64,000 nucleotides of DNA from contig NZ_FNFE01000004.1 of assembly GCF_900100335.1 (NCBI RefSeq), forward strand, positions 310,001 through 374,000, read 5' to 3'. Source of the stretch: Natronorubrum texcoconense (GTDB lineage: Archaea; Halobacteriota; Halobacteria; Halobacteriales; Natrialbaceae). Position numbers and translations under genes: made by a program. A model generated the notes under the pieces. It was not told where the DNA came from. It did not search any database and was given only the letters and a program-made list of their open reading frames with translations. This document shows, one piece after another, positions 39,482 through 57,234 of this stretch. Numbering within the stretch: position 1 is the stretch's first letter; each line of letters starts with the position of its first letter.

Positions 39482-39877
39482 GCGTCCTGACGGAGTCCAA
39501 CGCGAGCGGTAGCGAGCGTTGGGCACGTCAGGACCGAATACAGGAGCGGACGCTGAGCAATGCGAAGCGTCCGCGATAAGTGAGCGTCCTAACGGAGTTC
39601 TCTGCGAACGGAGTGAGCAGAGAGCACGGACGACGCATGCGTCGTCCGGAGATTTGAACGCGGGAAGACGGTCGCTCCCTTCGGTCGTGCTGCGACTTCC
39701 CTGCTCAAACCTCCGCGTATGAGTTTCCACCGATTCGAACGCCTCGTTGCGCTCGGCGTTGTTGCGTCGGTGAAAACGTCCTGACGGAGTCTTACGCGAA
39801 CGAAGTGAGCGTAAGGCACGTCAGGACCGAACGCAAGAGCGAGTGCTGAACAACGTGAAGAACTCGCGATAAGTGAG
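39482..39877. repeat. Tract of tRNA-Arg 3'-end copies and covarying hairpins
   Basis: Two ~100-base units (about 39482-39583 and 39777-39877) are homologous, and a third partial one starts at 39585. Each begins with GTCCTGACGGAG (or GTCCTAACGGAG), the last bases of the adjacent tRNA-Arg gene. Each holds a hairpin with core GCGARCG-n-WGTGAGC-like and different but complementary arms: CCAAC/GTTGG (39497-39522), TCTCT/AGAGA (39599-39623), CTTAC/GTAAG (39791-39815). GTCCTGACG is mirrored by CGTCAGGAC in units 1 and 3. A 22-base perfect palindrome lies at 39627-39648 and a further tRNA piece (GGAGATTTGAAC) at 39648-39659. No gene is supported in 39264-39877. Confidence 0.8.
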
Positions 39878-39950
39878 CGTCCTGACGGAGATTTGAACTC
39901 CGGTCCCTGGCTCCGCAAGCCAAGAGGATAGTCCACTACCCTACCAGGAC
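39878..39950 (-). tRNA. tRNA-Arg (anticodon GCG)
   Basis: Folds as a complete cloverleaf on the minus strand: acceptor GTCCTGG/TCAGGAC with discriminator G, D-arm GGGT...ATCC, anticodon stem TTGGC/GCCAG around the loop TTGCGGA (anticodon GCG, reading CGC), and T-arm CGGAG-TTCAAAT-CTCCG. No intron and no encoded CCA. Its 3' end is repeated several times in the 400 bases downstream. Confidence 0.92.
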
Positions 39951-45572: not shown

Positions 45573-45678
45573 GCCGAAGTAGCTCAGTTGGTAGAGCACC
45601 TCGCTGTTACGGTGACACAGCGTTTCGCTGGTCGCCGCAGATACGAGGTTGTCCCAGGTTCGAGTCCTGGCTTTGGCG
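45573..45678 (+). tRNA. tRNA-Asn (anticodon GTT) with intron
   Basis: Cloverleaf with acceptor GCCGAAG/CTTTGGC and discriminator G, D-arm GCTC...GAGC, anticodon stem CCTCG/CGAGG, anticodon GTT at 45606-45608 and T-arm CCAGG-TTCGAGT-CCTGG. A 33-base intron (45610-45642) sits after position 37, the standard archaeal site; CGGTGAC and GTCGCCG inside it pair (one G-T) to make the central helix of the bulge-helix-bulge splice motif. Confidence 0.92.
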
Positions 45679-46220
45679 CTGTTTTTCGGACATTACTCGC
45701 GAGGAGTCGTGACTCCAAGCGAATCCGGTGAGAGAAACAGCGGAACAAGACGGACTCGAACACGCGAGTCGCAGCGAGCGAGGGATCGGATATTCCTCGA
45801 GCAGTCGGCGCTTCGCGCCGCCGACCGCGCAGCGAACGGAGTGAGCGAGCAGGACCATCTCGCACCTGTTCGAGTCTTAGCTTCGGCGTTTCTTCAGTGA
45901 GCGGTTCGCTCACACGGTGAGTCAGAGCCGCCAGCCGTCCATGTTGCTAGTGGGGGATGCTATCGCGACCGTTCTGCTCACGTGGCAACGGTGAGTTCCA
46001 CCGCCTCCCCAGCCGATTCGCTCGTCATTCTATTCACTCGCTCATCCACAGGAAGACGCTTCGCGTCTTCCACGCAGTCGCTCGTATTACTCGCGACGAC
46101 CTCGCACGGCTTCGGACCGCGTCTCACTTCACGCTCGACGCGCTCCGGCGCGCGCCACCGCACGTGGATTTTCGAGTGTCTGTGCGATGGTTTATACCGA
46201 ATAGCGCGGCGAAACCGTGC
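45679..46220. other. Gene-free tract with a degenerate tRNA-Asn 3' end
   Basis: 542 bases. At 45868-45888 the sequence matches the tRNA-Asn 3' end (45658-45678) at 18 of 21 positions, in the same direction. GCGAACGGAGTGAGC at 45834-45848 is the same hairpin core found three times beside tRNA-Arg. At 46192-46199 GTTTATAC is the TATA box of the nuclease gene at 46221. No coding sequence is supported in between. Confidence 0.65.
46192..46199 (+). promoter_or_regulatory. TATA box of the PD-(D/E)XK nuclease gene
   Basis: GGTTTATACC centred about 25 bases before ATG 46221, the spacing of a leaderless start. Confidence 0.6.
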
Positions 46221-57127: not shown

Positions 57128-57234
57128 GGGCCCTTAGCTCAGTCTGGTTAGAGCGCTCGGCTCATAACACGGTCGCAACTGGTGCGGGTGTGTGAGATAC
57201 CGAGTGGTCGATGGTTCGAATCCGTCAGGGCCCA
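57128..57234 (+). tRNA. tRNA with CAT anticodon and intron (Ile2 or elongator Met)
   Basis: Acceptor GGGCCCT/AGGGCCC with discriminator A, D-arm GCTC...GAGC, anticodon stem CTCGG/CCGAG, anticodon CAT at 57163-57165, T-arm GATGG-TTCGAAT-CCGTC. A 32-base intron (57167-57198) follows position 37. The body resembles tRNA-Ile2 (CCCTTAGCTCAGT ... TGGTCG ... CAGGG), whose C34 is modified to agmatidine in archaea to read AUA; elongator tRNA-Met is the alternative. Confidence 0.88.

Follow-up and report, generated by a model that had tools for sequence, protein, structure and literature searches.

Integron attC sites bear GTTRRRY and RYYYAAC boxes and form hairpins with a conserved structure and variable stems, lying in tandem cassette arrays. 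REP/BIME sequences have a GT(A/G)G head beside a GC-rich imperfect palindrome, and in the RAYT system a transposase gene (PF01797) is located between two inverted repeat copies (PMC2817692). Haloquadratum walsbyi harbours SMRs and PATEs, palindromic mobile repeats of about 50-110 bp without a transposase of their own; SMR-A was described as targeting IS605-type elements, and PATEs as lacking a target duplication (PMC3119063). Partial tRNAs directly adjoining a full copy were noted in passing in Haloferax gibbonsii (PMC7921747), and a palindrome CGTTA(N)9TAACG downstream of tRNAs was reported as species-specific in Methanopyrus kandleri (PMC5217627). The literature that was searched, with subscription papers and supplements out of reach, holds no description of the tRNA-linked repeat family treated below, which is class-wide in Halobacteria and apparently unreported.

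The window analysed here is a stretch of 64,000 nucleotides from Natronorubrum texcoconense. In it, tRNA-Arg(GCG) is encoded on the minus strand (read from 39950 to 39877), so that the tract at 39482-39877 is the 3' flank of this gene, downstream of it. The tract is composed of one type-1 unit (39645-39777) flanked by two type-2 units, the outer stems of which are made of the acceptor strand. Its features are as follows.

39877..39950, minus strand: tRNA-Arg(GCG), host gene of the tract (ARAGORN; Rfam RF00005, 47.7 bits)
39777..39876, minus strand: type-2 unit A (sequence; orthologous units in many relatives)
39777..39789, minus strand: exact copy of the tRNA 3' end, CTCCGTCAGGACG (sequence match)
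39791..39815, plus strand: hairpin CTTAC-GCGAACGAAGTGAGC-GTAAG of unit A, with tandem G-A mismatches and a GAA triloop (sequence; covariation)
39819..39827, plus strand: CGTCAGGAC, inverted partner of the acceptor copy, closing the 9-bp outer stem of unit A (sequence, fold)
39838..39868, plus strand: second hairpin of unit A, GCGAGTGCTGAACAACGTGAAGAACTCGC (sequence, fold)
39723..39777, minus strand: H1 hairpin of the type-1 unit, stem closed by TTTC...GAAA (sequence, fold)
39645..39718, minus strand: H2 hairpin of the type-1 unit, containing the inverted T arm, a GTCGCAG...CGTC core and the T-loop/T-stem copy (covariance model match, 60.9 bits, E 2e-10 for the whole genome)
39703..39714, minus strand: inverted copy of the T arm, GGAGGTTTGAGC on this strand (sequence, fold)
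39647..39661, minus strand: direct copy of the T loop and 3' T stem of the tRNA, GCGTTCAAATCTCCG (sequence)
39628..39649, no strand: perfect palindrome CGGACGACGCATGCGTCGTCCG between the T-stem copy and the third hairpin (sequence, fold)
39585..39623, plus strand: tRNA 3'-end copy with one mismatch (39585-39597) and hairpin TCTCT-GCGAACGGAGTGAGC-AGAGA (39599-39623) (sequence; covariation)
39483..39584, minus strand: type-2 unit B, with the 3'-end copy at 39483-39495, hairpin CCAAC...GTTGG at 39497-39522, mirrored CGTCAGGAC at 39526-39534 and a second hairpin at 39546-39574 (sequence, fold)

Unit A begins with the lead GCTCACTTATCGCG, followed by a hairpin, the inverted acceptor strand, the arm-core-arm hairpin and the tRNA 3'-end copy. 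A preliminary description of this DNA had reported three hairpins with a common core and different arms, each preceded by a copy of the tRNA 3' end that is mirrored as CGTCAGGAC in two of them, and all these parts are located where it had put them. The arms are CCAAC/GTTGG (39497-39501 / 39518-39522), TCTCT/AGAGA (39599-39603 / 39619-39623) and CTTAC/GTAAG (39791-39795 / 39811-39815). Before each hairpin the plus strand reads CGTCCTGACGGAG (39483-39495, 39777-39789) or CGTCCTAACGGAG (39585-39597), both being the tRNA 3' end in reverse complement, and within the window copies of CTCCGTCAGGACG, exact or with one mismatch, are confined to this tract. The tract as delimited there is real, but the type-1 unit inside it and the presence of the same arrangement at most tRNA genes were overlooked. 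In a search of the tract and six related loci against Rfam 15 at the gathering score, RF00005 alone passes, and nothing outside the tRNA does. Two more tRNA genes of about 106 nt, detected by Rfam and missed by ARAGORN, lie on the plus strand of the window at 45573-45678 and 57128-57234 and probably carry introns; downstream of the former come a G-A hairpin (45832-45846) and its own 3' end in a degenerate copy.

The hairpin core has the layout GC-GA-NC-GNA-GN'-GA-GC, that is, its stem contains tandem G-A mismatches and mostly ends in a triloop of the GNA type; the N-N' pair varies between A-T and G-C, with C-G in some H2 tips. With at most one mismatch, the core GCGARCGNAGTGAGC occurs six times in the window, where 0.17 occurrences are expected and none of 100 shuffles reaches this number; exact matches in the 4.64-Mb genome number 28, as compared to one for the reversed-pattern control. 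Covariation of the arms, noted in the preliminary description from three hairpins, holds in a larger set of 20 distinct hairpin versions taken from the tRNA-Arg(GCG) tracts of relatives: standard pairs fill 98.9% of the cells, and changes on both sides are found at seven of the nine pairs. No shuffle equals the observed covariation score, and slid registers stay far below it. One-sided changes appear in just 1 of 180 cells, which means that intermediates are nearly missing. The covariation is thus confirmed, but the conclusion drawn from it, selection on structure, is only partly safe, since template-switch correction could likewise preserve the complementarity of the arms. Selection is argued better by the tandem G-A mismatches, which are conserved. 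The same core occurs in a second repeat family, GGTTCGGAGCGAACGAAGTGAGCGAGAACCGCGG and then GCGAACGGGGAACGCAGTGACCCGTGAGC, which forms clusters away from tRNAs (L003-L005, L007, L008, L011, L012, L014, L017).

The genome of the window contains 43 tRNA genes according to Rfam, and the counts given here rest on these 43 loci. Behind most of the genes, typically 75-165 nt downstream, the gene's own 3' end is copied from the T loop (GTTC) to the discriminator, and an inverted copy of the own T arm sits nearer to the tRNA than the direct one. Within 400 nt downstream, 24 of the 43 tRNAs have their own acceptor end copied at 12/14 or better; permuted tRNAs give 0.05 on average and the own upstream flanks give one. 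A looser table has 45 units at 30 tRNAs, several of them in tandem, the unit counts being approximate because one row (C10:387510) is an inverted T arm read as a unit; roughly 13 of the 43 tRNAs have none. The order of parts in a type-1 unit is a T-rich start, the H1 hairpin, the inverted T arm, the H2 core with its GTCGCAG/CGTC loop and a tip bearing the G-A hairpin, and the T-loop-to-acceptor copy, with a T-loop box GTTCAAATC or GTTCGAATC in most units. The general plan can be written as [target X]-[H1 hairpin]-[inverted X]-[H2 hairpin core]-[X copy], X normally being the 3'-terminal 12-24 nt of the host gene, from T loop to discriminator. The inverted arm forms 78 Watson-Crick pairs out of 125 with the T copy of its own unit, as compared to 55.5 +/- 4.2 and a maximum of 70 in 2000 permutations.

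A covariance model of H2, termed R1, was built from 25 sequences, one row of which had one T-loop base removed by hand. Since the model spans T-loop positions, it has some built-in bias to tRNA loci, and the fit of the acceptor copy to the adjacent tRNA is the test that is independent of it. R1 finds 33 places in the genome of the window, about 29 of them at listed tRNA genes; one further match (C2:904187) lies in a tract displaced from tRNA-Glu. Strong R1 matches occur in 66 of the 79 Halobacteria genomes sampled and in 37 of 42 genera. In a sample of the phylum, 18 of 19 Halobacteria turned out to be positive and none of the 101 genomes outside the class. Carriers include Natrinema, Haloarcula, Halovivax, Natronorubrum, Halapricum, Halorubrum vacuolatum, Halovenus and Natrialba. 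In the other genomes examined, the own acceptor end is copied at 13/15 or better for 42 of the 45 tRNAs beside R1 matches, vs. 50 of 1964 for swapped tRNAs. A haloarchaeal tRNA-Arg with a unit was also met on a contig labelled as a Nitriliruptoria bacterium MAG (L168, PUKE01000101.1), probably a binning error.

Inner modules of 93-100% identity occur at different tRNAs within one genome, and the T-stem letters are locus-specific. Examples are the pairs C3:434903 with C2:1116168 and C4:313211 with C4:294776 (93%); some close pairs join isoacceptor or related tRNAs. The tandem copy number of the units varies as well. A unit away from tRNAs, beside an argB-like gene named by its place and translation, is found at C10:200507. 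Seven congeners have the flanks of this site joined, i.e., empty, and two relatives have a different insert at the same point. Its local plan is X, hairpin, inverted X, H2, X, with X resembling GTCA(T) over 4-7 bp. This site supports mobility of the units, observed here once, and suggests that insertion copies its own target. A similarity search with this unit returned ten further copies, six of the loci holding a tRNA, and C10:200507 is the one insertion polymorphism worked out cleanly; at the single-unit tRNA locus L041 no clean empty site was seen in relatives, the flanks being rearranged there. Mosaic intergenic arrays of several hairpin modules occur away from tRNAs (L009, L010, L021, L145). 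Their last parts are a hairpin resembling H2 and a T-rich run, e.g. CTTTTAATCGAATTTTT, and their pieces reappear in many combinations across the genus. An enzyme for the spread was not found in the genome of the window; there are two Y1 transposase (PF01797) matches, C2:3-326 and C5:6-305, both at contig ends with one flank unreadable, which indicates that the assembly probably breaks at IS200-type elements.

With middling confidence, we regard the tract as a member of a haloarchaea-wide group of modular palindromic DNA repeats directly 3' of tRNA genes that spread as target-copying non-autonomous units. The suggestion of the preliminary description that structured repeats form a family spreading beside tRNAs is supported by the class-wide distribution, the strong tRNA linkage and the inner modules shared between tRNAs. 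The units would act as DNA, in the form of a folded single strand or a cruciform, rather than within the transcript of the tRNA; they would spread as small non-autonomous elements through a copy process that provides each new unit with the sequence of its target in both orientations. Such DNA-level spread with target copying is the mechanism that we prefer, although it is unproven; what has been demonstrated is the structure of the units, their tailoring and their distribution. More tentatively, the units may form a new class of non-autonomous element which uses tRNA genes as landing sites throughout the haloarchaea and has a direct and an inverted target copy written at each insertion; the host gene would then stay whole, and each copy would be individually fitted to its site. 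Several points speak against the preferred reading. The type-1 units in the genome of the window mostly have their core on the sense strand and fold better in the sense direction, as RNA would; gene conversion between existing units could be the source of the shared modules, with no transposition, and some close pairs join related tRNAs; target copying leans on a single site away from tRNAs, the X of which is short (4-7 bp) and at which two relatives have a different insert; no responsible enzyme was found; and R1 has its built-in bias to tRNA loci.

As an alternative, the 3' flank may be functional, the unit being co-transcribed or folded in the nascent RNA and serving termination, trailer processing or 3'-end protection, with the arms maintained by selection on RNA structure. 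Such a role would fit the constant downstream position of the units, the T-rich start behind the tRNA, their long-lived presence at the same tRNA across genera and the type-2 unit on both sides of an integrative element in tRNA-Arg; type-1 units in the genome of the window fold better on the tRNA-sense strand in 33 of 40 cases, and most have the G-A core on that strand. We nevertheless consider it unlikely. Stems kept as RNA should show more G-U than A-C, and 71 palindromes from 88 tRNA flanks, a gapless and small count that is not final, gave 16 G-T vs. 19 A-C, as compared to 7 vs. 0 in the tRNA acceptor-stem control, so that a DNA-level process is favoured. The scarcity of one-sided pair changes (1 of 180 cells) points the same way. 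The core is on the opposite strand in the type-2 units of the window and at many loci of other genomes, where G-A and T-C counts are similar (21 vs. 26). A core on either strand and stems lacking a G-U bias do not favour the RNA element co-transcribed with the tRNA that had been proposed at the outset, and a functional flank is further disfavoured by the roughly 13 of 43 tRNAs that lack a unit, by the existence of a non-tRNA copy and by the missing Rfam match. According to another explanation, slightly less likely still, the units are a by-product of replication: forks stall at tRNA genes, and template switching at the T-arm palindrome yields X-inverted X-X with no element and no function, while quasi-palindrome correction maintains arm complementarity and gene conversion holds the copies to the sequence of the tRNA. 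In its favour are the perfect Watson-Crick pairing of the arms, with no intermediates, wobble without strand bias, the X-antiX-X pattern and the mosaic modules. Correction would, however, erase the conserved unpaired motifs (the tandem G-A and the GTCGCAG/CGTC loop), and neither the absence from some 100 genomes sampled in the phylum outside Halobacteria nor the near-identical modules at unlinked tRNAs agree with it.

The third alternative, also offered in the preliminary description, is that the partial tRNA copies are integration scars left behind by tyrosine-recombinase elements. Such elements usually have their att sites at tRNA 3' ends, and integrase-bearing elements are indeed present at tRNA-Glu and, in genome G001, at tRNA-Arg(GCG); the scar at tRNA-Glu, however, is unlike the tract. 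The element at tRNA-Glu (C2:958683) is an insertion of about 54.5 kb with a PF00589 integrase (C2:904.2k-958.7k; L122, L058). Its 47-bp core begins in the anticodon arm, its ends have no H1/H2, and the repeat tract of tRNA-Glu, displaced by it, is now found behind the distal core at a distance of about 54.5 kb. This true scar differs from the tract in core start, length and flanks, and the tract is unlikely to be a scar: its copies begin at the T loop and are accompanied by H1/H2. The element in tRNA-Arg(GCG) of G001 (L073, 1500-3184) has a degenerate integrase fragment that gave no match in a Pfam search and is 64% identical to a PF00589 integrase, thus of the same family as the one at tRNA-Glu. 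The type-2 unit on both of its sides implies that elements can carry units along. Beyond its distal end there are tandem type-2 repeats, and the same distal flank, GGTTGTATCCATAACGAGG, occurs in another species (L076, G004). Searching the viral contigs of IMG/VR with three patterns gave no unit, so that no viral vehicle is seen, which likewise tells against scars. Altogether this origin of the tract seems highly improbable.

Thus a whole archaeal class has structured repeats with tailored gene copies behind many of its tRNA genes. These data point to a copy mechanism that embeds its target, or to an unrecognised function of the tRNA 3' flank, or to ordered palindromes made by replication at tRNA genes, and all three options can be tested in Haloferax volcanii or in a different unit-bearing haloarchaeon amenable to genetics. 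The units may account for partial tRNAs that genome papers called remnants, and could lead to errors when integration sites are called.

As to the systems described earlier, the remarks on H. gibbonsii and M. kandleri likewise concern remnants or palindromes beside tRNAs, but no repeat family, structure or tailoring was described, and the M. kandleri palindrome is unrelated to the haloarchaeal units (PMC5217627). The tRNA att sites of archaeal tyrosine recombinases also use the 3' part of the tRNA gene and leave partial copies, but they have a longer core and a kilobase insert with an integrase, and in the case examined no H1/H2 at the ends (PMC8371274). Like the tRNA units, SMRs and PATEs are haloarchaeal, palindromic, about 50-110 bp long and devoid of their own transposase; they are set apart by description only, since no tRNA link or target-matched arms were described for them (PMC3119063). 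The tRNA units share with integron attC sites a conserved hairpin structure, variable stems, tandem arrays and bounding short direct repeats, but have neither the GTTRRRY / RYYYAAC boxes, the T-loop box reading GTTCAAATC or GTTCGAATC in most units, nor cassette genes, and their arms match the neighbouring tRNA. With REP/BIME and RAYT they have in common short interspersed palindromes, modular tandem arrays, complementary stem changes and presumed single-stranded folding (PMC2817692). No GT(A/G)G head is present in the unit sequences read by eye and no rayt gene flanked by these hairpins was found, both PF01797 matches lying at contig ends, and the family is therefore not filed under REP/BIME. 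REP sequences are strain-specific, whereas the units are class-wide, linked to tRNAs and provided with copies of the end of the gene that they target (PMC2817692).
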